Origin: Catenulispora sp. MAP5-51
GTDB lineage: Bacteria; Actinomycetota; Actinomycetes; Streptomycetales; Catenulisporaceae
Direction of reading: 5' to 3'
Assembly: GCF_041261205.1 (NCBI RefSeq)
Contig: NZ_JBGCCH010000025.1
Span: 62,001 to 126,000, forward strand
Length of the DNA: 64,000 nucleotides
Under the pieces are notes generated by a model. That model ran no database searches. It was not told the DNA's origin and worked only from the letters and a program-made list of their open reading frames with translations. Both the position numbers and the translations under genes were made by a program. Position 1 is the first letter of the stretch. Every line of letters begins with the position of its first letter. Below are positions 37,291 to 63,591 of this stretch, piece after piece.

Positions 37291-40200
37291 GTGGATGCTT
37301 CGAACCTGCGTGCGGAGATACAGAACCTGGTCGTCAGAGCAGAGGCGTTCGTCACCGCGACACCCCTGGCGGCGGATCTCGATCGGATGATCGAGGAGTC
37401 CGCCGAGGTCGAGGTGCGCGCGAGTGGGCTGTTGAGCGATGACGACCCCGCGCTCGGGCGGCTTCGGGTGACACTCGGCGGGTTGTACGCGTCGCGGTGT
37501 CTTCGCTTCGGATGGAGCGACGGCGACCGGGATGAAGGACTGCGGCGGTTCCGGGCGGGGCGCGCCGGCGGGCATCTGAGCGCGGAGACGGACGCGAGCG
37601 CGATGCTGCTGTTCGCGGTGTTGCTCGTGCCCCGGGCCGCGGCCACCTTCGACGGGCAGGCCGCCGGCACGTTGGGTGCGATCCTTGATTTCGCCGGGCA
37701 GCTTCGGCAAGGCGGCCAGCTCATCGAGGACCTGACCGAGATGCGCGGGGTCCTCGACGAGATCGTCGCGGCCCGGCCCGACGATCCGCGTGTTCCGCCC
37801 CTGATGGCGTACGCCACGACGCTGGGCGGCGTGTTGCAGCTGATGCGCGGCCTGTCCGACGGCACCGGGTCCGACGGCACCGGGTTCAGCATGGCGCGGA
37901 TGGGCGACCTGATCCGCGGGATGCCCTCGGCGCCCGACGGCCGGCTCGGCTCGATCATGGGTGCCTTGATGCAGCAGGGCGAAAGACTCGAGCAGCAGCT
38001 ACAGCAGCAAGGGCGCCGGGATGTTGTCGACCAGCCCGACCAGCCCGACCAGCCCGACCACGACGACCAACTGGTCCGGAACGACCTCGCGATGCTCGTG
38101 GAGGTGACGGTTCCCGGCTCCCTGACTCCCGCCGAGTTCAGGAGCCTGATCACCGGCTACGAAATCGAGGGCGACAGCCGGAGCGCCGCCATCGCCGCCA
38201 TCGGCCGATTCGCCGCGGCGAGCCGGACGAACGACCCCGGCGAGATGGATCAGGCACTGCGCCACCTGCGGGACGTGGCCGGCAGTCCGGAGGCCCCCGA
38301 ACTGTCCTGGCTCTTCACTTCCGTCTACCCCGGCTTGCTGGCGTTGGCGGCCGACACCCACGGCAACATCGGCGATGCCGCGAAAGCCCTGGGTCTTTAT
38401 GAGCACCAAGCGCCACCGCCACCAGCGCCGACCCCGGCGGCAGAGCAAGAACTGGGCTTCATACGCGCGACCCTCGGCACGAACCTGCGCCTGTCCGAGG
38501 CCATCGAGACCGACGACGAAGAAGCGCTGGACGGCCTCCTCGCGGAACTCCTCGAAGCCCGTCCTCCTACGGACGCGGCCCAGAGCGAATGGGCGTTCCT
38601 CCACCCGCTTCAGCTGGCGCTGGCGAAGCTCAGCGTCTCCGTCCGTCGTCAGGACACGGATATGGCCCGAGAAGCGCAGGCGCTCATGCGGACCGCGCTC
38701 GACAAGCCGATGCCGACGGCCGTCCGCACCCTCATGGAGGCCGCATGGTCGTCGACCCACATGATCACAGCGGTGCTCGAACGGCAGCCGACCGAGATCG
38801 CGGACGCCGTGGACAGTGCGCGCGGTCTGTTGAGCGCGGACATGGGTTCGTACGACGGTCCGGTCCAAACACGCCTGGGCATCGCCTCCGGCCTGATGAC
38901 GCGATACCTCCTCACCGAGGGGCCTGCCAAGGACCAGGCCCTCGGTGAGGCCATCGACGTCCTCGAACAAGCCGAGGCCGCCCTGACCGAGCGCACCGGC
39001 TCGCGGATCGCCGGTCGCGTCCTGTGGAGCCTGGCCGACGCCCTGCGCACCCGGCACGACCCCGCGCTGGACGACAACCGCCGGGCCGTGGCACTGACCC
39101 GCGACTCCCTCGGCATGGTCGCCGACGACGTGCTGCTCCAGCTCAACGCCGAACACGGACTGCGGGCCGCGCGGACCGGGGCCCTGCGCGGACTTCGAGC
39201 CGCCGGCTGGGCCCTGGAGGACCACCGCGTCCAGGACGCGATCGAGTGCCTGGAGCTCGGCCGCGCCCTGGTCCTGCGGTCCATCGCGACCGCCGGCTCC
39301 GTTCCGGACCGGCTTCGCGCGGCCGGCGAGACAGAGCTCGCCGAGCAGTGGGAGAGCTCCATGTCACGCCCGATCGGAACGGGACCGGGCGCTGGAGACC
39401 AGGTGGGAACGGTAGTCGGAGAGGCCGCCGGCGACCTCGATCTGCCCAGTGATCTCAGGCGGCGCGCGCTGGCGGCCCTGCGCATGCCGGGCCGGCGGGA
39501 TCTGCCGATCGTGGCGACGCCGCCCCAGATCGCCCGGCACCTCGACGCCGCCGGCGTGGACGCCGTCGCCTACCTCCTGCCCGGCGCTGAAGGTGCCGAC
39601 GGCACAGTCCTGATGATCCGCCGGGACGGTTCCACCCAAGAGCTTCCGCTCCCGGGTCGGGGACCGCTGGTGGATTACCTGGACGCGTCTGCCAAGCGCT
39701 ATCAGCGGTTGCGCGGCCAGGACACGACGCGCGACCTCTCAGCCGTGCCGCGCTGGGAGGTCTCCCTGGACGAGCTCTGCGCCTGGGCCGGGGCATCCGT
39801 GCTGGATCCGCTGATCGCGGCGCTGCCCGAAGCTCCGACCCCGGAATCGCCGGCCCGCGTCGTGCTCATTCCCTGCGGCCGGCTCGGGCTCGTGCCCTGG
39901 CACGCGGCGAAGATCTCGGCCACGCCTGCGCTCGCCGGACTGTCCCGGCCGCCGCGCGCCTGCGACCTTCTCGTCATCTCCTACGCGGCGTCGGCGGACG
40001 AGCTCGTGCGCAGTCTGTCCCGGAGCAGGAAGCCGTACGACACCGATCCGGTCCTGGTCGTGGACCCCAGCAGGACCCTGTCATATGCCGAAGAAGAGGC
40101 GGTCGCGGTCCGACAGGCCTATCTGCCCGGCGCGCGCCTCCTGGGCGCCGCGACAGGCGGGCCGGTCGAGGCCGCGGGTACCCCCGAACAAGTGCACATC

Positions 40201-40767
40201 GCCCTCGCCGGCGACGAACACCGCGACCCGGCGTCGATGGTCCAGATCATCGCGCACGGCACGGCCAGCACGCGCCCCACCGCCTCGCGGCTGCTGCTGG
40301 CGCGGCCGGCCGGACCGCAGAAGGACAAGGACGCCGCTTCGGAGTACCTCACCGTCGCCGACATCGTCGACGCCTCGCGGCCCGGCCCGCAGGACCGGTT
40401 CTCCGCACTGGTCATCCTCGACTGTTGTGAGACCGACCTGAGCAGCCGGGACCACGACGAGGCGCTGACCCTCACGACCGCCTTCGTGGCCCGGGGCGCC
40501 GTCGATGCGATCGGGTCGCGCTGGGCGGTCGACGACTGGTCGGCCGCGGTCTGCATGATCGTCTTCCACCACTATCTCGCCGCCGGCAGCACTCCGGCCG
40601 AGGCGTTGCGGGCCGCTCAGCGCTGGATGCTGGACCCCGATCGCGAGCCCATCGCGGCGGTGAGCGGATATCTGCTCGCTGAGACGCGCACGCCGTTGGA
40701 CGACGTCTGGAATTGGGCGCCCTTCATCCACCAGGGCAACGCGGGCACTGTCACCGCATCAGGGTGA
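37291..40767 (+). CDS. TPR-like helical repeat protein with C-terminal CHAT protease domain
   Basis: A 1158-residue protein. Residues ~1-700 are alpha-helical repeats of TPR type; residues ~740-1158 form a CHAT (caspase-HetF associated with TPRs) domain. The caspase-like dyad is visible: His989 in QIIAHGTAS and Cys1046 in VILDCCETD. The family end signature follows, with AIGSRWAVDD and TPAEALRAAQRW. TPR-CHAT proteins are proteases activated by partner binding in bacterial conflict systems (Csx29 of the Craspase system is a studied example). The GTG start gives an N-terminus (MDASNLRAEIQNL) continuous with the helical domain but lacks a Shine-Dalgarno. An in-frame DQP-type 9-base repeat at 38029-38058 sits in a loop. 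It is transcribed in the same direction as, and 126 bases before, the next gene run. It is probably the effector or activator protease of the island; substrate unknown. Confidence 0.93.
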   Translation: MDASNLRAEIQNLVVRAEAFVTATPLAADLDRMIEESAEVEVRASGLLSDDDPALGRLRVTLGGLYASRCLRFGWSDGDRDEGLRRFRAGRAGGHLSAETDASAMLLFAVLLVPRAAATFDGQAAGTLGAILDFAGQLRQGGQLIEDLTEMRGVLDEIVAARPDDPRVPPLMAYATTLGGVLQLMRGLSDGTGSDGTGFSMARMGDLIRGMPSAPDGRLGSIMGALMQQGERLEQQLQQQGRRDVVDQPDQPDQPDHDDQLVRNDLAMLVEVTVPGSLTPAEFRSLITGYEIEGDSRSAAIAAIGRFAAASRTNDPGEMDQALRHLRDVAGSPEAPELSWLFTSVYPGLLALAADTHGNIGDAAKALGLYEHQAPPPPAPTPAAEQELGFIRATLGTNLRLSEAIETDDEEALDGLLAELLEARPPTDAAQSEWAFLHPLQLALAKLSVSVRRQDTDMAREAQALMRTALDKPMPTAVRTLMEAAWSSTHMITAVLERQPTEIADAVDSARGLLSADMGSYDGPVQTRLGIASGLMTRYLLTEGPAKDQALGEAIDVLEQAEAALTERTGSRIAGRVLWSLADALRTRHDPALDDNRRAVALTRDSLGMVADDVLLQLNAEHGLRAARTGALRGLRAAGWALEDHRVQDAIECLELGRALVLRSIATAGSVPDRLRAAGETELAEQWESSMSRPIGTGPGAGDQVGTVVGEAAGDLDLPSDLRRRALAALRMPGRRDLPIVATPPQIARHLDAAGVDAVAYLLPGAEGADGTVLMIRRDGSTQELPLPGRGPLVDYLDASAKRYQRLRGQDTTRDLSAVPRWEVSLDELCAWAGASVLDPLIAALPEAPTPESPARVVLIPCGRLGLVPWHAAKISATPALAGLSRPPRACDLLVISYAASADELVRSLSRSRKPYDTDPVLVVDPSRTLSYAEEEAVAVRQAYLPGARLLGAATGGPVEAAGTPEQVHIALAGDEHRDPASMVQIIAHGTASTRPTASRLLLARPAGPQKDKDAASEYLTVADIVDASRPGPQDRFSALVILDCCETDLSSRDHDEALTLTTAFVARGAVDAIGSRWAVDDWSAAVCMIVFHHYLAAGSTPAEALRAAQRWMLDPDREPIAAVSGYLLAETRTPLDDVWNWAPFIHQGNAGTVTASG
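38029..38058 (+). repeat. In-frame 9-bp tandem repeat (Asp-Gln-Pro)
   Basis: GACCAGCCC occurs three times in a row, encoding DQPDQPDQPD in a hydrophilic loop of the CHAT protein. Confidence 0.8.
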
Positions 40768-40826
40768 TGACTATGTCGGTCGCTCCCGTCGCGCCGTAAT
40801 CGCCACCCTGTCGCCGCTTCCCGCTC

Positions 40827-41757: not shown

Positions 41758-41758
41758 C

Positions 41759-42220
41759 ATGGATCTCGCCCTGACCGCCTCCGTCTTCGGCCGCAACGCG
41801 GCCATGCGCCGCGATCTCAAGCTGGTGGAACGCGAGCTGGCGAAGAGCGACGAACCGGAGCCGGAGGCCATCGACCTCATCCCGATCTGGGAGGAGCTGG
41901 TCGCCGTGCTCGGCGTCGCGGCCGCGGGCCTCGACGACGACGTGGTCCCGGCCGCCGTCGACCGCTACGTGGACGCCTACATCGCCGAGTTCATGCGCCG
42001 CGTCGACGCCCGCCACGACGCCCGGCTCGGCGCCCTGGACCGGTTGGAGTTGAAGGTGGCCCCGCACCTGGCCCGCATCCACACCCTGATGCGCGACGAG
42101 CAGTTCCGCATCGAGCTGCTGGACGCGATCATCACCGACCAGGTGATCCGGGTCGCGGCCACCGAGGAGCCGCCGGTCTTCTCCCCGCACCGCCCCGACC
42201 CGCCGGAGCAGCACCGGTGA
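41759..42220 (+). CDS. Small helical protein of the conflict island
   Basis: A 153-residue acidic protein, predicted nearly all alpha-helical, with no cysteines, signal peptide or membrane segment. It opens MDLALTASVFGRNAAMRRDL and contains several amphipathic helices (for example around residues 45-110, including YVDAYIAEFMRRVDARHDAR). The start follows the preceding stop by one base and the stop overlaps the next GTG by 4 bases, so it is translationally locked between its neighbours. I do not recognise the family. Its location suggests a partner or chaperone of the 40894 product or of the membrane protein that follows. Confidence 0.8.
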   Translation: MDLALTASVFGRNAAMRRDLKLVERELAKSDEPEPEAIDLIPIWEELVAVLGVAAAGLDDDVVPAAVDRYVDAYIAEFMRRVDARHDARLGALDRLELKVAPHLARIHTLMRDEQFRIELLDAIITDQVIRVAATEEPPVFSPHRPDPPEQHR

Positions 42221-43020
42221 AGGACCTCACAGTGAGCCCGCACCGGCGCACCGGGCTGAACGCCGGCGACGTGACCACCCGCAGCCTGGGCGACATCCTC
42301 GGCTCCGGCTGGACCCGCCTGGGCCTGTGGGCCGTGGCTCTGGCCGCCGCACTTGTCGACGTCGGCACCTTCTACCAAGTCCTGGTGACCGTCCTGGACG
42401 CCCCGGAACGCGTGGTGTGGGTGGTGGTGTTCGGCTTCGCGGCCGTCGCGCTGACCCTGGCGCACTGGGCCGGCTGGCAGTCCCGGCAGCACCGGGATCC
42501 GCGCTCGCCGCACCGGTCGCGCCTGCTGGCCGTGCTCCTGTTCGCGGTCTGGTTCGGCTTGGGGGTGCTCGCCTTCGTCATCCGCTACCAGCTCGCCCAG
42601 GCCGATTCCTCCGACACCTCGACGGTCGACACCAACGGTGCGGTCTCGACGGTGTCCGGCGGCATCGACGAGACGACGGAGCACTACGCCGCCCTCTTCT
42701 TCTTCATGCTCTACATCGCCACCGGCGCGGTCGCCGCCGTCGCCGGCTATTTCCGCCCCGACCCCGCCGCCCGGCAGGTCGGCCGGGCCCAGCGGCGGCG
42801 CGCCCGGGCCGCCCGGCGGCACGCGCGCACCGCCCAGCAGTACACCCGGGTGGAGCGGACCGCGGAGAAGATCGAGCAGGCCCGCCGCCGCCGCGAAGTC
42901 GCACGGCAGGCCACCGAGGACCAATGCCGCAGCGCGGCCGAACGGCTGAAGGCCCAGGCCTGCCTGTTCCTGCGGCGCTCGGCGCCGGCACCGGCCCACC
43001 ACGAGGAGGCATCGTCATGA
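42217..43020 (+). CDS. Four-helix membrane protein with C-terminal basic coiled coil
   Basis: A 267-residue protein with four clear hydrophobic segments: about residues 34-58 (LWAVALAAALVDVGTF), 65-88 (VVWVVVFGFAAVALTL), 105-128 (LLAVLLFAVWFGLGVLAFVI) and 150-173 (YAALFFFMLYIATGAVAAVA). The loop between helices 3 and 4 is Ser/Thr/Asp-rich. The last ~85 residues are Arg/Ala/Glu-rich and look like a cytoplasmic coiled coil. The GTG start overlaps the preceding stop (GTGA) and the stop overlaps the following ATG (ATGA). Its topology resembles the protein at 50647 in the same island, which carries its main coiled coil before the helices. It is probably a membrane anchor or channel-like component; no known family recognised. 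Confidence 0.85.
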   Translation: MKDLTVSPHRRTGLNAGDVTTRSLGDILGSGWTRLGLWAVALAAALVDVGTFYQVLVTVLDAPERVVWVVVFGFAAVALTLAHWAGWQSRQHRDPRSPHRSRLLAVLLFAVWFGLGVLAFVIRYQLAQADSSDTSTVDTNGAVSTVSGGIDETTEHYAALFFFMLYIATGAVAAVAGYFRPDPAARQVGRAQRRRARAARRHARTAQQYTRVERTAEKIEQARRRREVARQATEDQCRSAAERLKAQACLFLRRSAPAPAHHEEASS

Positions 43021-44225
43021 CTGTCATGACCATCGCGACCGCCCGCCATGCCTGGGTCGCCCTGTTGCTGGCGGTGACCGGCACCGTCAGCGGCTGCGGG
43101 TTCTTCACCGGCAGCGCCGACGCCGCGCCCCAGCAGCAGCCGGTGGCGATGTCCTGTCCCGGCACCGGTTCCGCGCCGTTGACTCTGGTCGTCGGCGCGC
43201 ATGCCAACAGTCCGCAGCCGGAGCTGCCGCCGCAGATCAGGACCCTGGTACACGACGCGGCCCTGGCCGGGCAGGACGTCCAGGTCGAGCTGCTGGACGG
43301 CACGCCGGCCACCGTGCAGGACCGCCACTTCTCCTCCAGCAGCCAGAACCCCCGGATCAAGGAGCGCGACCTCGACCGCTTCGTCGCCGACACCGGGGCG
43401 GCGGTGAGCGCGCTGCGCCCCAGCGCTCCCCAGGTGGACTTCCTCACCGGGCTGTCGGTCGCCGGGCAGCACACTCCGGCCGGCGGCACCATCGTGGTGC
43501 TGGACTCCGGGGTCGCCACCGCCGGGCCGGTCAGCTTCCAGGACCAGGCCATGTTCGGCGTGGACCCGGCCGAGGTCGCCAAGTACCTGGACGCCCAGCA
43601 CCTGACGCCGGATCTGCGGGGCAAGGCCGTGGTCTTCGTCGACCTGGGCCAGACGGCCGGCCCGCAGCCGATGTTCGAGCAGAACGTCCAGACGCAGATC
43701 AATGCCCTGTGGACGACGATCGCCAAGGACGCCGGCGCGTCGTGCCAGACCACCGTCCAGGTCACCCATCCGCAGACCTCGGTGCCCACCGCCGTGCCGG
43801 TCGCGGTCGTGCGGCCGCAAGCCCCGCCGGCCTTCGACAGCTGCGGCACCACCACGCTCGGCGACGAGGGAAGCGTGGGATTCGTCGCCGGCTCCTCGGA
43901 CTTCCGCGATCCCGCGGTGGCCAAGACCACGCTGAGCTCGCTGGCCCGGCTGCTGGCCGGGCACACTCAGCAGGTCCGGCTGATCGGCTCGGTGTCCAGC
44001 GACGGCAGCCCGAGCGTGGACCACATCCTGTCCCTGAGCCGCGCCGAGGCGGTCAAGAACGTGCTCGTCGATCTGGGCGTGGACCCCTCGCGCATCACCA
44101 CCGAGGGCGACGGCGAGGCCGCCGGCCCCGGCCACGTGCCGGACCGCACGGCCACCGGCAGCCTGATCCCGTGGGCGGCCGAGCGGAACCGGTCGGTCAC
44201 CGTCATCCTGACCTGCCGGAGCTAG
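43017..44225 (+). CDS. OmpA-like C-terminal domain lipoprotein
   Basis: A 402-residue exported lipoprotein. The signal peptide has a hydrophobic core (WVALLLAVTGTVSG) ending in a lipobox with Cys27 (VSGC). Residues ~45-280 form an unrecognised alpha/beta region with VVGAHANSP, a possible Rossmann-like or vWA-like sensor. Residues ~295-402 match the OmpA/MotB C-terminal peptidoglycan-binding fold: VGFVAGSSDF at the first strand, SLSRAEAVKNVLVDLGVDPSRI, and a final AAERNRSVTVIL, equivalent to the family NRRVEI ending. Such domains bind the peptidoglycan stem peptide. In a monoderm actinomycete this would tether the system outside the membrane to the cell wall. It overlaps the upstream membrane-protein gene by 4 bases and lies 2 bases before the kinase gene. 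Confidence 0.88.
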   Translation: MTVMTIATARHAWVALLLAVTGTVSGCGFFTGSADAAPQQQPVAMSCPGTGSAPLTLVVGAHANSPQPELPPQIRTLVHDAALAGQDVQVELLDGTPATVQDRHFSSSSQNPRIKERDLDRFVADTGAAVSALRPSAPQVDFLTGLSVAGQHTPAGGTIVVLDSGVATAGPVSFQDQAMFGVDPAEVAKYLDAQHLTPDLRGKAVVFVDLGQTAGPQPMFEQNVQTQINALWTTIAKDAGASCQTTVQVTHPQTSVPTAVPVAVVRPQAPPAFDSCGTTTLGDEGSVGFVAGSSDFRDPAVAKTTLSSLARLLAGHTQQVRLIGSVSSDGSPSVDHILSLSRAEAVKNVLVDLGVDPSRITTEGDGEAAGPGHVPDRTATGSLIPWAAERNRSVTVILTCRS

Positions 44226-44227
44226 CG

Positions 44228-46489
44228 GTGGCCGGTTCCGGGATCGGCACAGGTGCCCAGGAGGCCCCGCCGACCGTGCTCGACCCCGGCCGGCAACGGC
44301 CGGGCGAGGCCGATGTGACTGAGATCGATCCTGATCGCCCCGACTGGCGCCCAGCCTCGGCCACCGGCCTGCCGCCTGGCCTGGACAGCCGTTTCGCGGT
44401 GATCCGCAGCCTGCACAGGGTCGGCGCGCGCGCCGAGGTCTATCTGGTCAAGGACCGGGCCACGGACGAGGAACGGGTGCTCAAGCTCTACGACGATGCC
44501 CGGCGCTCGCGGATCGTGCAGTCCTTCCTGCAGCGGAAACGGAGCACGCACATCGTCACGGTCTACGAAGTCGGCACCGAGGCGGACCGCGACTACGAGA
44601 TCATGGAGCACCTTGGCGGCGGCACCCTGCTGGCGCTGTCCGAAGCCCATCCCGGCGGTCTGGACCCGGCCCGCGTCACAGCGCTCGTGCGCCAACTCGG
44701 CGCGGCGCTGGCGGCGATGCACGCGGCCGGCCTGATCCACCGGGACGTGAAGCCCTCGAACATCGCGGTGCGCACGCTCGAACCGTTCGAGGTGGCGCTC
44801 TTCGACTTCGACATCAGCTCCCACCAGCCGGCACCCGGACTGTCCCAGGACCGCTCGGGAACGGTGCGCTATCAGCCCCCGGAGTTCCTGGCGGGCAGCT
44901 GGCTCTCCACCGCCTGCGACTGGTGGGCGCTCGGCCTGACCGTCATGGAACTGGCCACCGGGACGCGGCTGCTGGCCGGCGCCGACGACGACGCCGTGCG
45001 CCGCCACGTCGCCGGCGGCCCGCTGGCGGTGCACCGCGTGGTCGACGACCGCCTCCGGCTGCTGTGCCAGGGCCTGCTGGCCCAGGACCACACCGCGCGA
45101 TGGGGCGCCGACCAGGTCGACCGGTGGCTCGCCGGGGAGTCGCCGCCCGTCCCGGGTCCGGCGCCGGCCGATCCTGGGAGGGTCGCGGCTCAGGTCCCAA
45201 CGGCCTACCGGTATCTGGACACCGACTACTTCAACCGCGACGCGCTGGCCCTGGACCTCACCCGGACCTGGGACACCGCGGCCGAGCTCCTGTTCCGGTC
45301 CGGTGACCCGGAACCATTGGCACGGCTGCGGCACTGGCTCGGGCAGTACGGTCCGACAGCGATTCCCGATCCTGGCGACCCGCGGGAGCCGGTCGATGTC
45401 AGGCTACTGCGACTCGTGCGCGCCATGGACCCGTCCCAGCCGCCGATCTACCGGGCCGTCCACATCGCCAGCACGCGCCTGGCCGACCTCGCGAGCCAGG
45501 CGGCCGACGGGGTCGGGATCGCGCCGGCGATCGTCCGGGAGCTGTGGGCCCACCGGCTGCTGCCGCTGCTGACCACCGGCGTGGCCGCCGACGGCCTGGA
45601 GGGCGGTGCCGGCCTGGCCGAGCTCGACGCCGGCTGGCGGGCCTGGTACGAGTGGTGGCCGAGGGCGGTCCGCACGGTCGCCGACGACGAGGCGCGTCGG
45701 ATCCTGCGCGGGCGCGACGCGGAGGCGACCGGGCGGACGGTTGCCCTGTGCCTGCTGGCAGCCGCCGCCGGAACCGACGACGCCCGGCGCGCCGACATCA
45801 GCGCGGACCTTCGCCGCCGCGCCCGGTCCGTGCGCCTGCCCTGGTTCACCGAACTGGCACAGGACCCGGACCGGATGTGGATCGCCCTGCGGCTCAGCCG
45901 CCACGCCGAGCAGGTCGCCGCCGAACGGGACGAGGAGGAGGCCCGCGAACGGCGCCACGCCCGCTGGCTGCTGCGCAACCAGCGGCTGCGCGAGTGGTCG
46001 CGCCGCCAGAACCGGCCGCTCGCGCTGTCCTGGGCCGTGGCGGGGGTGTTCCTCATGGGCCTGCTGTGCGCGCTGACGGTGAGCGTCAGCGACATCGCCG
46101 GCCAGGTGCCCGGGACGACGATCCTGCGGGCCTGGGTCGCCACCGTCTTCGCCGTCGCCTCGACGCTGGGCTTCGAGTCGCTCTTGGCGTGGGAGATCGG
46201 CGGACGCTTCCATCCGCGCTACTCGATGCTCGGCGCCGGCCTCATCCTGCTCGGCCGCGCCGCGCGCACGATCGCCGGCCGCGGCATCGCGCTCGCGGTG
46301 ACCGCGGGCGTGCTGGCGGGGGCGTATCTGCTGACCGTCTACCAGCCGGTGACCACGCCGCTCGTCCTCGGCGGCACGACGATCGTGTGGGCCGTGGCCC
46401 GCTACCTGTCGTGGCGGACCGATGCCGCGCGCGAACGGGCCGCCGTGGAGCGGGCGGCGCGCGAACTGGGCGCCGGGCTCGGGCGATGA
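44228..46489 (+). CDS. Serine/threonine protein kinase with C-terminal membrane segments
   Basis: A 753-residue protein. A Hanks-type kinase domain spans about residues 50-310: ATP-binding Lys86 (VLKLY), catalytic loop IHRDVKPSNIAV with Asp173, and DFD (193-195) in place of DFG. The Gly-rich loop is degenerate (HRVGARAEVYLV). The activation region SGTVRYQPPEF and the DWWALGLTVMELATG helix are intact, so activity is likely despite the loop changes. Residues ~320-590 are helical and unrecognised. A charged coiled coil (ERDEEEARERRHARW) leads into about four or five membrane helices (600-740), so the kinase is an inner-membrane protein with its catalytic domain in the cytoplasm. The GTG is chosen because GGAG is 6 bases upstream and it begins 2 bases after the lipoprotein stop. 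The FHA protein at 50056 is the obvious candidate reader of its phosphothreonines. Confidence 0.92.
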   Translation: MAGSGIGTGAQEAPPTVLDPGRQRPGEADVTEIDPDRPDWRPASATGLPPGLDSRFAVIRSLHRVGARAEVYLVKDRATDEERVLKLYDDARRSRIVQSFLQRKRSTHIVTVYEVGTEADRDYEIMEHLGGGTLLALSEAHPGGLDPARVTALVRQLGAALAAMHAAGLIHRDVKPSNIAVRTLEPFEVALFDFDISSHQPAPGLSQDRSGTVRYQPPEFLAGSWLSTACDWWALGLTVMELATGTRLLAGADDDAVRRHVAGGPLAVHRVVDDRLRLLCQGLLAQDHTARWGADQVDRWLAGESPPVPGPAPADPGRVAAQVPTAYRYLDTDYFNRDALALDLTRTWDTAAELLFRSGDPEPLARLRHWLGQYGPTAIPDPGDPREPVDVRLLRLVRAMDPSQPPIYRAVHIASTRLADLASQAADGVGIAPAIVRELWAHRLLPLLTTGVAADGLEGGAGLAELDAGWRAWYEWWPRAVRTVADDEARRILRGRDAEATGRTVALCLLAAAAGTDDARRADISADLRRRARSVRLPWFTELAQDPDRMWIALRLSRHAEQVAAERDEEEARERRHARWLLRNQRLREWSRRQNRPLALSWAVAGVFLMGLLCALTVSVSDIAGQVPGTTILRAWVATVFAVASTLGFESLLAWEIGGRFHPRYSMLGAGLILLGRAARTIAGRGIALAVTAGVLAGAYLLTVYQPVTTPLVLGGTTIVWAVARYLSWRTDAARERAAVERAARELGAGLGR

Positions 46490-55961: not shown

Positions 55962-57005
55962 ATGGCCGACGAGAGCCCGGAACCGGAAAAGGTCGAACTG
56001 GAAATCCACGAGGCAGCCCGGGAAGGCGCGCTGTCGGCCTATCTGGCGGAACACCCGGCCACCGCCAGCCCGGTCCTGTACCGGATCGTCGCGGATGTCG
56101 TGTACGAGCGCCTGACCCGCCGCCTGGAGCGCGGCCGCGGACACCACCGGTGTGCCGTGGCGCCGGAGCTGCTCCTGCCCGAGTGCCATGACGGCTTCCA
56201 GGACGACGTCGAAGCCGTCCTGGCCGACCTGGTCAAGCACGCCGACCGGCGGATCGGCAACCTCGGCGGCTGGATGGCCGCCCGGCTCAACGCCGTCACC
56301 GTCGACGCCAACCGTCGGCGCCGCGGTGAACGGGGCGCGCTGCAACGGCCCCGGCTGCCCGCCTGGTTGGGCACCGCCCTCGGCCCCGACCCGTGGCTGC
56401 GCGCCCTGGCACTGGACATCCTGATGTGGGTCGGCGTGCCCACCGCGGTGGCGGGCGGGCTCTGGCCCCTGGGCACGTGGGCCGACCGGCGCGCGGCGGC
56501 CACCGGCGACCCCGGCGTCACCGAACGACAGGTCGCGGCCGACGTCGAGCTGGTGCTGTCGGCGATGAGGACGAACCCGGACTGGTACGAGCAGTACGTC
56601 GAGCGTCCGCTCGGCCGCAAGCAGGCGCCGCCGGCCTGCGCGCCGCGCGCCGATCGAGAGGGCGTATACGAGCCCGGCTATGTGTCCTGTGCCGGACCGG
56701 ACGAGTCGGTCGAGGCGAATCTGCGCGCACTGGCCTCGGAAGTGATCGACGCGGTCGAGGCCCGGATGCTGGCCGGCGACGACCCGCGCACGGCCGTGGT
56801 CGAGGTCCTCGGCCTCGTCTTCGGTGTGGGCACCGGATCTGAGGACCTCGGCTGTGCTCCGGGCTGCGCCCCGGACACCGACGAGCGGGTGGCCCGCCTC
56901 TTGGCCGATCCCGAAGCCCTGGACCGGGTGGTCGAGGTGCTCATAGGACCGGTCCTGGAGGCGATGGCGCAGGATGGGGGCGGTCGCGACGCCCTCGAAG
57001 GGTAG
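55962..57005 (+). CDS. Uncharacterised protein with a sigma-factor-like stretch
   Basis: A 347-residue, mostly helical protein I do not recognise with certainty. Residues ~85-120 (RIGNLGGWMAARLNAVTVDA followed by NRRRRG) resemble the end of sigma-70 region 2, where a helix ends in an Arg-rich run; N-terminal residues ~10-60 are also consistent with a region-2-like helix bundle. A classical region-4 HTH is not obvious; residues ~175-215 and the acidic C-terminus are unassigned. A hydrophobic stretch (ALDILMWVGVPTAVAGGLW, about 147-165) could be a buried helix. The ATG has GGAG 7 bases upstream. It lies just before the LuxR-family regulator, so a regulatory role is plausible but unproven. Confidence 0.78.
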   Translation: MADESPEPEKVELEIHEAAREGALSAYLAEHPATASPVLYRIVADVVYERLTRRLERGRGHHRCAVAPELLLPECHDGFQDDVEAVLADLVKHADRRIGNLGGWMAARLNAVTVDANRRRRGERGALQRPRLPAWLGTALGPDPWLRALALDILMWVGVPTAVAGGLWPLGTWADRRAAATGDPGVTERQVAADVELVLSAMRTNPDWYEQYVERPLGRKQAPPACAPRADREGVYEPGYVSCAGPDESVEANLRALASEVIDAVEARMLAGDDPRTAVVEVLGLVFGVGTGSEDLGCAPGCAPDTDERVARLLADPEALDRVVEVLIGPVLEAMAQDGGGRDALEG

Positions 57006-57013
57006 CCCCGCGG

Positions 57014-57024
57014 CTGTCCGTCAG
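57014..57024 (+). promoter_or_regulatory. Recurring GTCCGTCA element upstream of the LuxR-family gene
   Basis: CTGTCCGTCAG lies 8 bases after the stop of the 55962 gene and 21 bases before the ATG at 57046, with GGGAGGA between them. It matches the copies at 46506 and 62885 over ten bases. Confidence 0.45.
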
Positions 57025-57045
57025 CGACTGGCCGGGAGGAACTTC

Positions 57046-60000
57046 ATGACGACCACCACCCAGCTCGACCGGCCAGCCTATCGCCGCCGGAGCGCCGTGA
57101 GGCCGATTGTTCAGCATCTCCATGTACATACACCAGAATCAGCCATTGAGTACCGGCGCGGTGCGGGAGCGCGCCACAATGGCGCCATGACCACGGCCGA
57201 ACGATTCGTCGGACGCGACCATGAACTGCAGCGACTGAAGGTCCTGCTCGACCAGGCGGCAGGCGGCCGAGCAGCCACAGTGGTGCTGGGCGGCGAGGCC
57301 GGTGTGGGGAAGAGTCGGCTGGTTGCCCAGTTCATGGCACGGGCGGAGAAGGACCACCAGGCCCATGTCCTGCGTGGTGCGTGCATCGAGCTCGGCGGGG
57401 GACTCATCCCCTACGCGCCGTTGGTCGAGTCGTTACGTCTGCTGGTGCGCGACCGCGGCGAGAAGCAGATCAGGGCGGAGGTCACGGACTCCGCGTGGGA
57501 CGATCTGGCCCACCTGGTCTCCGATTTCACCGGTACGGCGGCCGCCGCCGTGCCGGACGCCGTGCCGTCCGGCTCCGGGCAGCTGCGGGTCTTCGGCGCC
57601 GTGCTCCGGATGCTCGAACACCTAGGCCGCAGCGCGCCGGTGGTGCTCGTCTTCGAGGACATGCACTGGGCCGACCAGTCCACGCTGGATCTCGTCTCGT
57701 TCCTGGCCCGGAGGCTGTCCAGCGAGCGGGCGCTGCTGGTGTGCAGCCATCGTGCGGAACTCCTTCCGGGGCACGCCCTCCGGGTGCTGTTGGCAGAGCC
57801 CGAATTCCATCGGCACGTCCATCCGGTGGCGCTGCGCACCTTCAGCGAGGACGAACTCGCGGACTTCATCGGCGAGCTCCTGCCCGACACCTCCACGCCG
57901 CCCGACCGGGACCTGGCGCGGCGCTGCCACGAGCTGTCCGGAGGCAATGCCTACTTCGCCGAACAACTGGTGCTCTCCGGCACCCTGACCGGCCCGCAGG
58001 CCAGCAGGGTCCCGGAGTCCATCAACGAACTGATGCTGACACGCATCGCGACGCTGAGCGAGCCGGCCCGTCGGGTCATGCAGGTCGCGGCGGCCGCCGC
58101 CCGCCGGCTGGACGACCGCCTCCTGGAGGCCGTGTGCGGGCTCCCCGACGATGTTCTCGACAACGCCCTGCGGGACTGTCGCGACCAGGGCATGCTCATG
58201 CTGGACCCGATCGACCAGGAGGCTTACACCGTCCAGCACGCGCTGCTCAGCGAGGCCGTCTACCAGCAGATGGGCATCGGCGAGCGCAGGCGTCTGCACA
58301 CCAGGATGGCCGAGGCGATGACCGCGGACGGCCGGCTGGGCCTGGCGCACGACGGGGGAGCCGCGGTCGAGCTGGCCCACCACTGGTTCCGCGCCGACCG
58401 CCGCGCCGAGGCCCTGGCCACGGCGGTTCGCGCGGGCGAGGCGACCATGCGGGGGCGGGCGTTCCACGAAGCCGAGAGCCAGTTCGGCCGGGTCCTGGAC
58501 GTCTTGTGGGGCCAGGTGACGGATGCGGAGCAGTCGGCCGGCCACTCCCGCGAAGGCCTTCTGTCCGCATCGGCGGAGGCTTCCCGGTGGGCGGGGCACC
58601 TGTCCCGGGCTGTCACCCGGGTCCAGGAAGCCATCGACGCCGTCGCGCTCCAGGGCGATTCGCGCCGGCTCGGAGAGCTGTACGAGCGGCTCGGCAGCTA
58701 CCACTGGGAGACCGGCGCGACGGTCGAGAGCCAGGCGGCTTATACCGAGGCCGTGCGGCTTCTGGAGGAGGCCGCGCCTCGCGGTGCGGCGCATGCCCGA
58801 GCGCTGGTCGGGCTCGCCATGGCCGAGATCCGCGCCGGCTCCTACCACGCCGCGCTGGGACGGGCCGGACGAGCGGTCGAGCTGGCCGAGAGCATCGGCG
58901 ACGTGGGTGCCGAAGGCCGGGCGCTGAACGCCGCGGGCCTCGCGCTGGCGTTGCTCGGCCGGGCCGAGGAGGGCGAGCCGCGGCTGCGCCGGGCGGTGAG
59001 GCTCGCCGACCAGGCCGATCATGTGGAGGATCTCCTGCGTGCGTACGGCAATCTCGCCGTGGCGCTGGAGCTGGCCGGAGACCTGGCCGGCTCGGTCGAG
59101 GAGGCGCTCACCGGTTTGCAGCGCGCTCAGGCGTTCGGGCTGACGGACGACCGGCTGGCCCTGGTGCTGGCCAACAACGCCGGTGTCTCGCTGATGGCGC
59201 TGGGCCGGTGGGACGAAGTCGCCGAGCTCCTGGGGCGGGTGATGGCAAGCCGGCCGCGGGTCGAGCAGAGCGCCTATCTGCGGCTCACTCTGGCCGAGTT
59301 CAGCGTGGCCCGCGGTCTGGACGCCGACGCCGAGCGGCTGATGGGTGAGGTGGGCGACCAGCGGATCGCCGATCCGCGATTTGTCGCCGCCTTGTACGCG
59401 TGCGAAGCCGACCTGCACTGCTGGCGGCAGGTGCCGGCCCGGGCCCTGGATGCGGTCCACCGGGGCCTGGCCGCGGTCGCGGACACCGAGAACGTCCTGG
59501 TGCGCCTGCGCCTGTACTCCATCGGCCTGCGAGCCGCGGCGGACCGGGCCGCGCTGACATCGGACGGTGGGGCCATGGGCGTGGATCTGATCAAGGCCGC
59601 GCGCAGACAGGCCGCCGCCGGGGCCGAGATCGACGAGATCCCGATCCTGCTCCAGCTGTGCCAGGCCGAGTATTGCCGGGCGCTGGGCAAGGATTCGGGC
59701 CCGCTCTGGGCCGATGTCGCGAAGGCCTGGGCACAGATGGGCCGCCCGTATCAGGCTGCTTACGCGAACTGGAGGGAAGCCGCCGCCAGGTTGGCCGCCG
59801 GGGACTGGGTGGCCGCGACCGAGGCGGCGACGGCGGCTGCCGAGACGGCCGCGAGGTTGGGCGCGAAGCCGTTGTTGTCCGCTGTGGAGGACTTGGCGCT
59901 CGGCCCGGTCCGCGAGCCTGATCCGCCGTCCGCGACGCCGGTGCCGGTGGCGGTGGCGGTGCCACAGGATCCGGGCCTGACAAAACGGCAGCTGGAGATC

Positions 60001-60198
60001 CTCAGGATGCTGGTATCGGACGGCGACACCAACCGCAAGATCGCCAGGAAGCTGGGCATCCAGGAGGCGACGGTCGCCACGCACGTCCACCGGATCTTCT
60101 TGAATCTCGGAGTTCAGAGCCGAGCCGCGGCCGTCTCCAAGGCCTTCGCCCTGGGCCTGTTCCCGGACCTCACGGGCTCGGCGCCGACCGGCGACTGA
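57046..60198 (+). CDS. LuxR-family (LAL-type) ATPase transcriptional regulator
   Basis: A 1050-residue protein. The ATPase domain starts near residue 50 (ERFVGRDHELQRLKVLLDQA), with P-loop GEAGVGKSRLV (Lys89) and Walker B VVLVFEDMHWAD. TPR-like repeats follow (about 450-940). A LuxR-type HTH is at about 977-1037: LTKRQLEILRML, then NRKIARKLGIQEATVATHVH. It is a large ATP-dependent activator. The ATPase and repeats are paralogous to the 52607 protein. The ATG at 57046 has GGGAGGA 5-6 bases upstream; an ATG at 57187 begins exactly at the conserved domain (MTTAERFVGRD), and the 47 extra residues are low in domain character, so the start is uncertain. The caspase gene follows 35 bases downstream and is probably co-transcribed and controlled by it. 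Confidence 0.94.
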   Translation: MTTTTQLDRPAYRRRSAVRPIVQHLHVHTPESAIEYRRGAGARHNGAMTTAERFVGRDHELQRLKVLLDQAAGGRAATVVLGGEAGVGKSRLVAQFMARAEKDHQAHVLRGACIELGGGLIPYAPLVESLRLLVRDRGEKQIRAEVTDSAWDDLAHLVSDFTGTAAAAVPDAVPSGSGQLRVFGAVLRMLEHLGRSAPVVLVFEDMHWADQSTLDLVSFLARRLSSERALLVCSHRAELLPGHALRVLLAEPEFHRHVHPVALRTFSEDELADFIGELLPDTSTPPDRDLARRCHELSGGNAYFAEQLVLSGTLTGPQASRVPESINELMLTRIATLSEPARRVMQVAAAAARRLDDRLLEAVCGLPDDVLDNALRDCRDQGMLMLDPIDQEAYTVQHALLSEAVYQQMGIGERRRLHTRMAEAMTADGRLGLAHDGGAAVELAHHWFRADRRAEALATAVRAGEATMRGRAFHEAESQFGRVLDVLWGQVTDAEQSAGHSREGLLSASAEASRWAGHLSRAVTRVQEAIDAVALQGDSRRLGELYERLGSYHWETGATVESQAAYTEAVRLLEEAAPRGAAHARALVGLAMAEIRAGSYHAALGRAGRAVELAESIGDVGAEGRALNAAGLALALLGRAEEGEPRLRRAVRLADQADHVEDLLRAYGNLAVALELAGDLAGSVEEALTGLQRAQAFGLTDDRLALVLANNAGVSLMALGRWDEVAELLGRVMASRPRVEQSAYLRLTLAEFSVARGLDADAERLMGEVGDQRIADPRFVAALYACEADLHCWRQVPARALDAVHRGLAAVADTENVLVRLRLYSIGLRAAADRAALTSDGGAMGVDLIKAARRQAAAGAEIDEIPILLQLCQAEYCRALGKDSGPLWADVAKAWAQMGRPYQAAYANWREAAARLAAGDWVAATEAATAAAETAARLGAKPLLSAVEDLALGPVREPDPPSATPVPVAVAVPQDPGLTKRQLEILRMLVSDGDTNRKIARKLGIQEATVATHVHRIFLNLGVQSRAAAVSKAFALGLFPDLTGSAPTGD

Positions 60199-60233
60199 CG
60201 CCGCTTGTTTCCCGCGCAGTGAATGGAGACACC

Positions 60234-62879
60234 ATGTCTGGAAGAGCGCTGTTGATAGGCGGCGCCGTCGAGAGCCTCACCGGGGTCGAGAACGACGTCG
60301 CGGCGATGGCGGAGGCGCTGTCCGCGCGGGGTCTGACCGTCGAACCCCCGCTCACCGGGAAGGACGCGACCCGGGCCGCGATCCTCGAAGCTTACGAGCG
60401 GCTGATCGCCTCAGTCGCACCGGGGGAAGCGGCGGTGGTCTACTACAGCGGCCACGGTGGCCGAGCCCTGCCGCCGGCTGCCGGGTCCGGGTCCAGATCT
60501 GGGTCCGGGCCCGAACCGATGGACCTTCAGTTCATCGTCCCCTACGACTTCGACGAGTCCGGGCCGGACGACTTCCGCGGCATCACGTCGGTGGAGCTCT
60601 CCGTGTTGCTGGCCCGCCTGACCGTGCGGACGGACAACGCGGTGGCGATATTCGACTGCTGCCATTCCGGGCGGATCTCCCGGGAGGACCGGCTCAGGGT
60701 CAAGGCCACCTCCCGCACGACCACCTACGGGGACCTGAGCGCCCACATCGAGAAGATGCGGGGACAAGGGCTGCGCACCGACTTGGTGCCGGCCACCGGC
60801 AACCCCAAGGCCGTGCGGATCGTGGCCTGCGCGCCCGAACAACTGTCCTACGAGTACCCCGGCATGGGCGGCAAGCAGATCGGCATCATGACCGAAGCCC
60901 TCACCCTGGCGCTGAAGGCGGCGGGGACCGAGCGCGTCAGCTGGGCGACGCTGCTGGACGCCGTGCGGCTCCGGGTCTCCTCGCTGGTGTCGGGCCAGCG
61001 CCCCGAGGCTGAGGGCCCTTCCCGCCGGCTGCTGTTCGAGACCGAGGGGGACGACCGTCTCGACTCGCTTCCGGTCACCGTCGTCGGCGACGGACGCGTT
61101 CGGCTCGATTGCGCGCCTCTGCTCGGGGTCCGCCAGGGCGACACCTTCACCGTCCTGTCGCCGGCCCAGGACACGATCGGCGACCTGACGGTGGACCGGG
61201 TCGGACCGTTCTCCGCACAGGGCGAGGTGGCCTTCGCCGCCGGAATCACCGAGGTCCCGGTCGGCGCGCGGGCACGCCGGATCACCGCGGCGGCGCCCAA
61301 GCTCGTCGTGTCGGTACCTCCGGACATCCCGCATGGCGCCGAGCTGGACCGGGCGCTAGCCGCTTCGCCTCTTCTCCGAACGGCTGCCGGCGACGAACCA
61401 TGGGCCGCGCGGTTGCGGATCGATGATGACGGTGCCGTGACGGTCGCCGACCGCGTCGGCGCGCTGCACGAGCCACGGCCCAGCGGCGAGGCCGGCCTGG
61501 CCAAGGCGGTCCGCGACCTGGAGAGGCTGGCCCGGGCCGAGGCGCTGCGCGGCCTGGACGCCGACACCCGCTGGTCGCTCAATGCCTCCAATGCCTCCAA
61601 TGCCTCGATCACGTGTGAATGGGGGCTGGTGCAGGGCGGCGAACGCCGACCCCTGCCGGCTTCCGGCGCGCTCGTCGAGGCAGGCCGGCCGGTCTATATC
61701 AGTGTTCGCAATCACGGCGAGACCCCCGTGTACGCCACGCTCGTGGACATCGGCATCGCCGGAAAAATCAGCGTCCTGACGGAGCTCGCGCCCTCCGGCG
61801 TCCGCCTCGCCCGCGGCGAGCAGCAGGAGTACGTCTACGGCTTCGACGACATCACCGGTGTCCTGGCAGGCGTACCCCTGGACTGGCCGGACGGCCTGGA
61901 CCCGGTGCACACCCGCATGGAGACCGTGCTGCTCTTCCTGACGTCCGAACCCCAGGATTTCAGCGCGCTGTCCCAGCCGGGGATCGCCCGCTCCGCCGCC
62001 CAATCCGCCGCCGCAGCCCAGGCCTCGCCGCTGTCGGTCGTGCTGGACCAGATCGCCACGGGCCGCACCCGGGACCTGCGCGGGGTGGCGAGCTCGGCCG
62101 TCCGCTACGACGTGCGGAAGGTGGAGTTCGAGCTGGAGCCCGCGGGCGGGACCGGCGGGTTCCTGATCGAGGAGATGCCGGGTTCGCAGCCGGCCGGACC
62201 GACGGCCCGCGTGCACACCTGGGACGGCGCGGAGACTCCGGACGGCGCGGAGAACCCGAGCGGCGCGAGCGGCGCGAGCGGCCCGAGCGCCCCGAGCACC
62301 ATGCCGGTCCCGAGCGCCGTGGCGGTCCGGCTGGACGAGCTGGTGATCCACCGCAACCGGGCCAGGTTCGGCGGCGCGGACGTCCGGATCGACGCGATCG
62401 TGCTGACCGGTGAGCCGCACTCGCCCCGGCCGGCGTTCCAGGCGCGGACCGAGCGGTTCTCCCGCATCCGCGACGGAGAGCCGCTTCCGTTGGACCGGAT
62501 GCTGGTCTACCACGGCTCGGCGGCGGAGTACCTCGACATCGCGTTGTGGGTGTCCCGGGACCGGCCCGACGCCGTGGACCTCGGCGAGCTGCTCAGCGAC
62601 GAGGTCGCCGCGTTCGAGATGCAGGAGGCCCTGGCGAAGATGGGCGGGGCGATGACCGGCCTGCCCTACGCCGCCGCCGCGGCGGCCATGGTGGGCGTCG
62701 GTGCCGTGGTCGTCAACGTCGCCTATCGGCTGCTGCGCGGCACGGTGAGCGACGTCATCGGCCTGTACCGGGGCTCGATGCTCGCCGCCGAGGGGTTCGG
62801 CGTCGGGCGCCATCCCGGTCAGGGAGTGCGCCGGGTCCAGGACTTCTCCTTCGCCTACAGCATCGACGACGTGTCCTGA
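60234..62879 (+). CDS. Caspase family (peptidase C14) protein with C-terminal helical domain
   Basis: An 881-residue protein. Residues ~1-250 are a caspase-like domain with His74 (VVYYSGHGG) and Cys143 (IFDCCHSG), both intact. Residues ~280-640 are mostly beta and carry SVRNHGETPVYATLVDIG, the extracytoplasmic-like DUF4384-type pattern seen behind many bacterial caspases. Residues ~670-880 form a C-terminal domain with a hydrophobic segment (YAAAAAAMVGVGAVVVNVAY, 810-829) followed by LYRGSMLAAEGFGVGRHP and DFSFAYSIDDV. The ATG is chosen because GGAG lies 5 bases upstream; an in-frame GTG at 60219 lacks one. Two in-frame repeats (NAS at 61581-61607; Gly-Ala-Ser near 62255-62300) lie in loops. 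It is the likely proteolytic effector of the right half of the island; the hydrophobic segment suggests possible membrane action. Confidence 0.93.
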   Translation: MSGRALLIGGAVESLTGVENDVAAMAEALSARGLTVEPPLTGKDATRAAILEAYERLIASVAPGEAAVVYYSGHGGRALPPAAGSGSRSGSGPEPMDLQFIVPYDFDESGPDDFRGITSVELSVLLARLTVRTDNAVAIFDCCHSGRISREDRLRVKATSRTTTYGDLSAHIEKMRGQGLRTDLVPATGNPKAVRIVACAPEQLSYEYPGMGGKQIGIMTEALTLALKAAGTERVSWATLLDAVRLRVSSLVSGQRPEAEGPSRRLLFETEGDDRLDSLPVTVVGDGRVRLDCAPLLGVRQGDTFTVLSPAQDTIGDLTVDRVGPFSAQGEVAFAAGITEVPVGARARRITAAAPKLVVSVPPDIPHGAELDRALAASPLLRTAAGDEPWAARLRIDDDGAVTVADRVGALHEPRPSGEAGLAKAVRDLERLARAEALRGLDADTRWSLNASNASNASITCEWGLVQGGERRPLPASGALVEAGRPVYISVRNHGETPVYATLVDIGIAGKISVLTELAPSGVRLARGEQQEYVYGFDDITGVLAGVPLDWPDGLDPVHTRMETVLLFLTSEPQDFSALSQPGIARSAAQSAAAAQASPLSVVLDQIATGRTRDLRGVASSAVRYDVRKVEFELEPAGGTGGFLIEEMPGSQPAGPTARVHTWDGAETPDGAENPSGASGASGPSAPSTMPVPSAVAVRLDELVIHRNRARFGGADVRIDAIVLTGEPHSPRPAFQARTERFSRIRDGEPLPLDRMLVYHGSAAEYLDIALWVSRDRPDAVDLGELLSDEVAAFEMQEALAKMGGAMTGLPYAAAAAAMVGVGAVVVNVAYRLLRGTVSDVIGLYRGSMLAAEGFGVGRHPGQGVRRVQDFSFAYSIDDVS
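61581..61607 (+). repeat. In-frame 9-bp tandem repeat (Asn-Ala-Ser)
   Basis: AATGCCTCC occurs three times in a row (last base changed), encoding NASNASNAS inside the caspase protein. Confidence 0.8.
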
Positions 62880-62884
62880 ACCGG

Positions 62885-62895: not shown

Positions 62896-62945
62896 TTGGC
62901 GGGCAGACGGGGAATCGTGATTCGCCCAACGGAAGGAAGCAGAAG

Positions 62946-63194
62946 ATGACCGGCCTGCACAGCACCGACAAGCAGATCATCGTGGACGGTGCGGAGTGGA
63001 TCCTGCCCCCGGACGCGGACGCGGCCAAGATCTTCGACCAGATCGAGACCGCGCTCGAGAAGGGGACCATCGCGCGGATCGCCGTCCTGGACCAGAAGCG
63101 CCGCCGGGTCGAGATCATCGTCAACGGACGCACCCTCACCAGCGTGGTCCTGGACGCCTGCCTCGACCCGCGGCCGAGCGAGACCTCCGGCTGA
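62946..63194 (+). CDS. Small uncharacterised protein next to the caspase gene
   Basis: An 82-residue protein with a probable alpha/beta fold: a strand (KQIIVDGAEWILPP), a helix (DADAAKIFDQIETALEKG), then strands (IARIAVLDQKRRRVEIIVNG and RTLTSVVLD). No cysteine pair, signal peptide or membrane segment. GGAAGGAAG lies about 7 bases before the ATG, a strong ribosome site, and codon use matches the neighbours, so it is a real gene. It sits between the caspase gene and the CHAT-tail-like small protein. It may be a regulator or partner of the caspase, but the family is not recognised. Confidence 0.82.
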   Translation: MTGLHSTDKQIIVDGAEWILPPDADAAKIFDQIETALEKGTIARIAVLDQKRRRVEIIVNGRTLTSVVLDACLDPRPSETSG

Positions 63195-63206
63195 GCACTC
63201 CAGCGC

Positions 63207-63239
63207 CGGTCCGGTCGCCCCGGGCGGGTGACCGGACCG
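63207..63239 (+). terminator. Hairpin between the two small genes
   Basis: CGGTCCGGTC pairs perfectly with GACCGGACCG around a 13-base G/C-rich loop. It lies 12 bases after the 62946 gene stop and 34 bases before the next ATG. It may be a terminator or attenuator that lowers expression of the last gene. Confidence 0.6.
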
Positions 63240-63273
63240 CTGCGTGTGCTCCCCAGCCGACAGGAGATGTGTC

Positions 63274-63591
63274 ATGTCGATCGACGCGGACAAGTACGAG
63301 GTCCACGCGGCCATCGCCGGCGCGGGGGACATCCTGCTCACCGCCGGATTCACCGGTGTCATCGGCTGGCGGCGGCCGGTGCCCGAGGGCCTCGCGGCCG
63401 TGGCCTCCTTCCTGCTGCACGCGGAACTCGCCGACGGCGGCCGCACACCGGCTGAAGCGGTCAGAGCGGTGCGCAGATGGCTTCGCGAGCCCGATCCCGC
63501 TGTGTTGCCGCCGCTGCTGGCCGCCCGGTTGCCGGCAGCGACCGCCTCGGCCGACGAGGATGGGAGTGCCCTGATCTACCGCGGACGGTGA
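63274..63591 (+). CDS. Small protein resembling the C-terminal segment of a CHAT domain
   Basis: A 105-residue protein. Its centre (residues ~20-75) aligns with the last part of the CHAT domain at 37291, after the catalytic Cys: VIGWRRPVPEG against AIGSRWAVDDW, AAVASFLLHAELADGG against AAVCMIVFHHYLAAGS, and TPAEAVRAVRRWLREPD against TPAEALRAAQRWMLDPD. It lacks the catalytic His and Cys and the rest of the fold, so it cannot be a protease. The ATG has AGGAG 7 bases upstream; an in-frame GTG at 63244 has none. It may be a partner that completes, blocks or mimics a caspase-fold protein in the island. Caspase/TPR-associated small proteins have been described in conflict systems; whether this is one needs a profile search. 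Confidence 0.85.
   Translation: MSIDADKYEVHAAIAGAGDILLTAGFTGVIGWRRPVPEGLAAVASFLLHAELADGGRTPAEAVRAVRRWLREPDPAVLPPLLAARLPAATASADEDGSALIYRGR

Follow-up and report, generated by a model that had tools for sequence, protein, structure and literature searches.

A run of consecutive genes within a 64,000-nucleotide stretch of the Catenulispora sp. MAP5-51 genome (contig NZ_JBGCCH010000025.1; the whole stretch is called the window below) may encode a modular, phospho-regulated conflict system of the programmed-cell-death kind, a reading to which we give about an even chance. A recurrent core was recognised in it, comprising a Ser/Thr kinase (F), an FHA protein (I), an AAA+ ATPase (H), a radical-SAM protein (K) and a coiled-coil protein (G), accompanied by a PP2C phosphatase in some genomes. 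In the window this core is joined to a membrane arm (the lipoprotein-like E and the proteins D and J, which have four transmembrane (TM) segments each, with B and C) and to a protease arm (the CHAT protein A, the STAND-type ATPases L and N, the caspase-fold protein O, and P). The immune or death function is one that we infer from gene content alone, and the reading is supported by the linkage of K to H, the collinearity of A to K in a genome of another family (G108), the death- or defence-type neighbours of the core, a kinase-FHA fusion in a relative (G008), and the joint loss of parts in G008 and G013. A preliminary description of this DNA knew of no described system with the whole set, and none was found in the literature searched, which likewise held no description of the core; papers beyond it may describe the core.

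Searches for H used its N-terminal half as the query, a region that is its own and for which no solved chain with E < 0.3 was found; the single P-loop of the protein lies at residue 443. Matches occurred in only 9 of 394 genomes of the class, the window's genome included, so ordinary ClpB proteins were not picked up. A 19-row H profile gave 6 of 396 genomes of the phylum, two of them new, and tblastn found H in nine plasmid records, three of which were examined. K lay near H in all 13 loci outside the window that were found through H (eight from the class, two from the phylum, three from plasmids). A kinase was present in 12 of these, the exception being G658, where the contig ends and gives 16 kb only, PP2C was present in six, and a G-family protein in 11 (E ≤ 1e-3); six of the 11 G rows are in the G model itself, and those outside the model are from G051, G658, L134, L135 and L136 (E 2e-12 to 3e-4). 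Carriers of the core belong to Actinomycetota, Pseudomonadota, Planctomycetota (L059) and Bacillota (L106 and plasmid L135). Co-occurrence of the neighbours in other genomes, on which the preliminary description had made its proposal depend, was thus found, both in relatives and in other phyla. Its idea of one multi-gene system held to that extent, but the set is not fixed, since the A-to-K row has a counterpart only in G108 and it is the smaller core that recurs. In G108, which is of the same class, A to K are collinear with the window at about 31-61% identity, and homologues of N, O, P and M lie beside them on the opposite strand. Relatives of D and J were found in four Streptomyces loci (L039-L042). 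A single fixed 17-gene unit was ruled out, as the parts separate between genomes; the membrane/phosphorylation arm and the protease arm are gained and lost separately.

The tie between K and H was also approached from the side of K. A profile of eight K rows was run against genome contigs, and among the best 80 of 417 confirmed loci the H subfamily was found in 17 of the 18 that scored at least 200 bits, the eighteenth being L044, where the sequence ends 102 bases beyond K. Below 200 bits it was found in 4 of 62 (L056, L059, L060 and L106). The profile was made from H-linked rows, and its scores thus favour such rows. In a tree of 91 K/NrdG-like proteins, 32 of them H-linked, the label changed 6 times versus 26.7 times when shuffled (0/500), and one clade of 28 rows held 27 H-linked members and L044; the H-linked rows outside this clade are those of G102, G537, G658, L059 and L106, and the tree does not establish a common origin for all.

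K carries the motifs CPLACKGC at residue 31 (CX3CX2C) and GGEP, and the Pfam Radical_SAM model fell marginally below its cut-off. An activase of a class III ribonucleotide reductase was considered as its identity and ruled out by the NrdG score, the missing NrdD and the placement of Gly_radical domains. The NrdG model gave 88.8 bits against a curated cut-off of 126.1, and NrdD was found in none of 10 carriers by a search that did find it in 6 of 14 control genomes. K is therefore not a typical NrdG. No Gly_radical domain was found in the window's genome; 3 of 12 carriers were positive, and in these the domain is distant from the locus with another NrdG-like match directly beside it. In 11 of 12 carriers no other match in the genome is better than the K of the locus, the exception being G537, whose match next to the glycyl-radical domain scores slightly higher; six of the 12, including the window's genome, have no further match. 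A second K-like radical-SAM gene of 208 residues lies 3' of a CHAT gene pair in G008 and G013 (L148 7406-8032, in reverse-complement coordinates, and L150 6802-7428), with no H in the stretch read. Remoter K-like genes in L058 and L106, the latter locus with a divergent H, sit among several large genes of no recognised kind and are perhaps further variants.

Most of the aligned homologues of G share only about 15-25% identity with the window protein. A profile of its C-terminal part, which contained no rows from the genomes of the 13 loci found through H, the window supplying its own, matched 7 of 394 genomes of the class, all of them K-H carriers, and recovered six of the eight non-window class genomes with H; the chance of this overlap, 1e-13, assumes independent genomes and is too small given shared descent. 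Within the family, 5 of 14 genomes matched. Cys389 of the window protein is kept in 26 of 28 aligned homologues, which include the weak ones of L039, L040, L042 and G051 (E 5e-7 to 7e-3), and also in a twenty-ninth, from a second locus of G013. The sole carrier of G that lacks K, G006, has Arg in place of this Cys, a single event that suggests that K may act on G, at or near Cys389. In G005, G is frameshifted immediately 5' of the retained Cys codon. A further step would be that K modifies G near Cys389 and so yields a licensed hub for the kinase/FHA/AAA+ arm, which would free the caspase-fold proteases, with the radical modification as the arming step of a death or immune system; we regard this as a tentative and rather improbable extension. 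If it were true, one core armed by radical modification would serve unrelated effectors in at least four phyla. The predicted model of G shows long helices and an alpha/beta domain at residues 310-413 (mean predicted local distance difference test (pLDDT) score 74). This domain resembles Crl and KA1-type folds (Foldseek best E 0.12; VIA-align Z ≤ 7.3), values in the commonplace range from which no function was drawn, and no solved chain with E < 0.2 was found for G.

The proteases and the kinase were inspected for catalytic residues. A CHAT or caspase-fold domain together with a catalytic His and Cys was found in both A and O: A shows a His-Cys dyad in the alignment, shared with 9 of 12 CHAT rows, and O has the motifs SGHGG and DCCHSG. 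Two CHAT-like proteins of G108 (L119 7628-10633 and L025 9895-12948) lack both catalytic residues and adjoin active-looking CHATs; they are perhaps regulatory pseudo-proteases. F keeps HRDVKPSN and reads DFD at the DFG position. Among F-type proteins 18 of 25 matched the kinase motif search; four Streptomyces members have HRD[IT/IS], with the Lys replaced, and the motif of L068 is degenerate.

The neighbours of the core change from locus to locus, and many are of types associated with death or defence. In Streptomyces L039, L041 and L042 the core is surrounded by a TPR-CHAT protein, a RES-type protein (identified by Pfam in L041) and a J-like protein, and L040 has a CHAT fragment at the end of the locus; RES is an NAD-degrading toxin. 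A macro-domain protein, again identified by Pfam in L041, has relatives in L039 and L040. G102 carries CHAT, RES, vWA, PP2C, a kinase, K, H, an HSP70 match, two DO-GTPases and GAP1, with a macro match below cut-off, and its gene content marks it as a core embedded in a GAP1-N2 type locus; in L059 a GAP1-N2 domain lies upstream of H, two genes or more away. A fusion of the kinase to a DUF4011-helicase-MTES_1575 protein (helicase-nuclease) occurs in L068, L056 and a Rhizobium plasmid, and these three fusions match the PADLOC models PDC-S37 (462-492 bits) and Hhe (215-225 bits), although the kinase domain is partial in the gene call of L056. Hhe is a tested anti-phage system. An Aristaeella plasmid has a row of DUF4011 protein, kinase, weak G, FHA, K, H, phosphatase and second kinase. 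The second locus of G008 has H, K, a kinase-FHA fusion of 1102 residues (FHA 35 bits; Pkinase 28 bits, below the cut-off of 32) and a CHAT protein of 1763 residues. Beside the core in L055 (Methylocaldum, 4313-5524) a DUF4407 protein with four hydrophobic stretches was noted, possibly equivalent to D or J.

Losses within the genus show how the arms come apart. In G008, A, G, H, K, L, M, N, O and P are retained at about 63-83% identity; B to F are absent from the interval separating A from G, and in-frame loss has left only the ends of I and J, without the FHA core or the TM segments. The same genes other than H are present in G013, which is without B to F, H, I and J. The kinase, OmpA, four-TM and FHA parts were thus lost jointly, in the manner of a single functional arm; G and the STAND-caspase genes were retained where these parts were lost. 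What is left in G005 is the frameshifted G, K, an N-like gene, O and P; in G006 it is G, N, O, P and M, and the genome of G006 has no K, its best match being at E 2e-4. The G005 assembly is a single contig, and those of G008, G013 and G006 are drafts. Three genes were seen to be shortened by an internal in-frame loss with both ends kept, namely Q of the window (63244-63591) and I and J of G008 (L120 11587-11991). The start/stop overlaps of the operon are preserved, and the in-frame shortening perhaps reflects selection for translational coupling.

A mechanism can be proposed for the locus. Envelope damage or infection would be sensed via lipoprotein E, the four-TM proteins D and J, and the membrane kinase F. 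F would then phosphorylate a partner, and I would read the mark and recruit the ATPase H, which would remodel a complex built on the coiled-coil protein G. K would mature G or a G-bound component. The armed complex, with L and N, would activate the CHAT protein A and the caspase-fold protein O, and the cell would be killed or arrested, while elsewhere the same core would drive other effectors in some genomes. The logic of the preliminary description, which ran from sensing and phosphorylation through FHA/AAA+ remodelling to proteolysis, is kept in this proposal; it gave no role to G and K, which are present in nearly every locus, and its function too was read from the genes themselves. If the proposal is true, conflict systems would gain a core that unites phosphorylation signalling, a Clp-type remodelling ATPase and a radical enzyme, with varying partners. 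It would also lead one to ask what keeps the CHAT and caspase-fold proteases of bacteria off and what then switches them on, and would name one residue and one enzyme to look at.

Several observations weigh against a conflict system built in this way. Only 9 of the 13 non-window loci with H have FHA (those of G102, G537, L134 and L136 are without it), and the search for G was negative in G102 and G537. For B, C and E, G108 was the only locus with homologues, so the whole set is rare and the core widespread. That the protease arm can exist without the core is shown by G006 and G005, where H and the kinase arm are missing but G, STAND and caspase genes are kept. H had no match in phage records. 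PADLOC, run on ten window proteins, returned generic kinase, AAA and caspase models only and named no system. No relative of CHAT, caspase or RES was found in the betaproteobacterial core loci L045, L047, L049-L052 and L054, the Pfam neighbour scans covering two of these seven, and the scanned neighbours in L047 (PriA and molybdopterin oxidase genes) are housekeeping-like.

The lack of evident effectors at the betaproteobacterial loci would suit a regulator of envelope stress or development rather than immunity, in which the kinase, OmpA lipoprotein, FHA protein and Clp-type ATPase control wall remodelling and the proteases cut developmental substrates; the OmpA domain and the TM parts do indicate the envelope. 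The patchy presence of H (9 of 394 class and 6 of 396 phylum genomes) would be unusual for a developmental pathway, as would plasmid carriage and swapped death-type neighbours, and we consider this explanation rather unlikely. A division into two unrelated neighbouring operons with separate jobs, the core A to K and a STAND-caspase unit L to P, is likewise unlikely. It would account for the 385 bases between L and M, for the run of G, N, O and P in G006, where the stretch read holds no A, H or K, and for the core occurring without N and O in most genomes. Against it stand the 16-base overlap of L with K, the adjacency of both modules in G108 (in another arrangement), G008 and G013, and the way G stays with N, O and P in G005 and G006.

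Type VI secretion loci contain kinase, FHA, Clp-type ATPase and OmpA proteins, and the window could on that ground be a relative of their threonine-phosphorylation control, since the same four protein types are present, and H reaches 200 bits against the ClpV model and E 23 bits against the TssL-OmpA model. These scores are far under the cut-offs (885 and 140 bits), H fits ClpB better (253 bits), and no sheath, tube or spike family was found among the Pfam-scanned proteins, which cover part of the neighbours; a type VI relative is highly improbable. A phospho-regulated conflict system remains the reading we favour among these.

The features of the locus are collected in Table 1. The genome is of 10.9 Mb, from a host that, judged by its size and relatives, is probably a filamentous actinomycete, and the family is sampled by 14 genomes, this one included. 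The preliminary description had listed seventeen co-directional genes, and the 17 frames are indeed consecutive on one strand over 37291-63591, but Q proves to be a remnant. Its ten tight junctions between 40894 and 55576, said to be of at most 46 bases, were measured from B to L as +1, -4, -4, +2, +46, -4, -4, +9, -4 and -16 bases. The identities it had given were borne out by Pfam (CHAT, OmpA, Pkinase, AAA_2/ClpB_D2-small, FHA, Fer4_12, AAA_16 with TPR, LuxR helix-turn-helix (HTH) and caspase), and no Pfam family scored above cut-off for B, C, D, G, J, M and P. Upstream lie GNAT, MFS and acyltransferase genes and a frame of 6742 codons (12743-32971), which from its length gave the impression of a natural-product type.

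Table 1. Frames A to Q of the window, with the evidence for each
Frame	Protein	Coordinates	Strand	Evidence
A	TPR-CHAT protease	37291..40767	+	Pfam CHAT 110 bits
B	287 aa	40894..41757	+	no Pfam/NCBIfam family; homologue in G108 only, 31% identity
C	153 aa	41759..42220	+	no Pfam/NCBIfam family; homologue in G108 only, 31% identity
D	4-TM protein	42217..43020	+	G108 homologue, 36%
E	lipoprotein-like, C-terminal OmpA domain	43017..44225	+	Pfam OmpA 43 bits
F	Ser/Thr kinase, C-terminal TM segments	44228..46489	+	Pfam Pkinase 106 bits
G	coiled-coil, conserved C-terminal domain, Cys389	46536..47888	+	homologue alignments
H	ClpB-D2-like AAA+ ATPase	47885..50059	+	AAA_2 159 bits, ClpB_D2-small 31 bits
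I	FHA protein, N-terminal Cys motifs	50056..50637	+	Pfam FHA 42 bits
J	4-TM coiled-coil protein	50647..51891	+	no Pfam family; homologues in G108 and Streptomyces L039-L042
K	NrdG-like radical-SAM protein	51888..52622	+	Fer4_12 98 bits
L	AAA_16 STAND-type ATPase + TPR	52607..55576	+	Pfam; 50% identical to N
M	347 aa	55962..57005	+	no Pfam family; homologues 47-71% in G108, G008, G013, G006
N	AAA_16 STAND-type ATPase + TPR + LuxR HTH	56974..60198	+	Pfam
O	caspase-fold protease	60219..62879	+	Pfam Peptidase_C14 65 bits
P	82 aa	62946..63194	+	no Pfam family
Q	remnant of two CHAT-type genes, internal deletion	63244..63591	+	comparison with G008 and G013

Homologues of A were found in G008, G013, G108, G102 and Streptomyces L039, L041 and L042, and no solved chain with E < 0.1. 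The possibility that B and C are versions of the two genes 3' of A in Streptomyces was dropped, the alignment similarity being unconvincing. The first of those genes seemed to resemble the tail of an Xre/MbcA-type antitoxin, but Pfam gave nothing for it in L041 and G102, and its one weak solved-chain match (E 0.04) has a designed-type name. The second encodes a RES-domain protein, as it does in G102. D and J each have four hydrophobic stretches by hydropathy count, and D is weakly related to the J-like proteins of the Streptomyces loci; a plasmid search with J gave no match, and its model (mean pLDDT 60) was too poor for a structure search. By eye, E has a signal and lipobox, and its G108 homologue is 41% identical. 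N may start further in, as the gene caller places its start at 57187. A homologue of P lies directly 3' of O in G108, G008, G013, G006 and G005. In Q, the 19 N-terminal residues of one CHAT protein are followed by the 87 C-terminal residues of another, CHAT-like protein; G008 and G013 have both proteins at full length, and this fusion of two gene ends rules it out as an independent gene.

The nearest frame for the locus is that of the GAP1-N2 GTPase-centric conflict systems, which Kaur et al. 2020 (PMC7159879) describe as modular, linked to membrane and wall and enriched in multicellular bacteria, with a third theme of active kinase, PP2C and vWA. The modularity, the link to membrane and wall and the multicellular hosts are alike, and G102 has the kinase/PP2C/vWA set with K and H in it. 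The differences are that GAP1 and DO-GTPase, both present in G102, were not found by Pfam among the 17 window proteins, and that the portions of that paper drawn on here name no ClpB-like ATPase or NrdG-like radical-SAM protein for these systems and do not describe this core; nor is it described in the portion of PMC8195603 drawn on. The same portions of PMC7159879 treat MoxR-vWA ternary systems, in which an NTPase chaperone is combined with varied effectors, some with caspase, FHA, OmpA and radical-SAM proteins. Neither MoxR nor vWA was found by Pfam among the 17 window proteins, the AAA+ protein of the window is ClpB-D2-like, and its radical-SAM protein is NrdG-like, not SPASM- or Memo-linked as theirs are (PMC7159879). 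The type VI threonine-phosphorylation pathway differs in the sheath and spike genes, absent among the proteins scanned, and in model scores far below cut-offs. K resembles NrdG and the glycyl-radical activases in Fer4_12, CX3CX2C and GGEP, but falls below the NrdG cut-off, occurs without NrdD in 10 of 10 carriers and has H as its neighbour. With Hhe and PDC-S37 the likeness is the fusion of the core kinase to a DUF4011-helicase-nuclease protein in L068, L056 and the Rhizobium plasmid; no such protein is among the scanned window proteins, where CHAT and caspase proteases stand instead.

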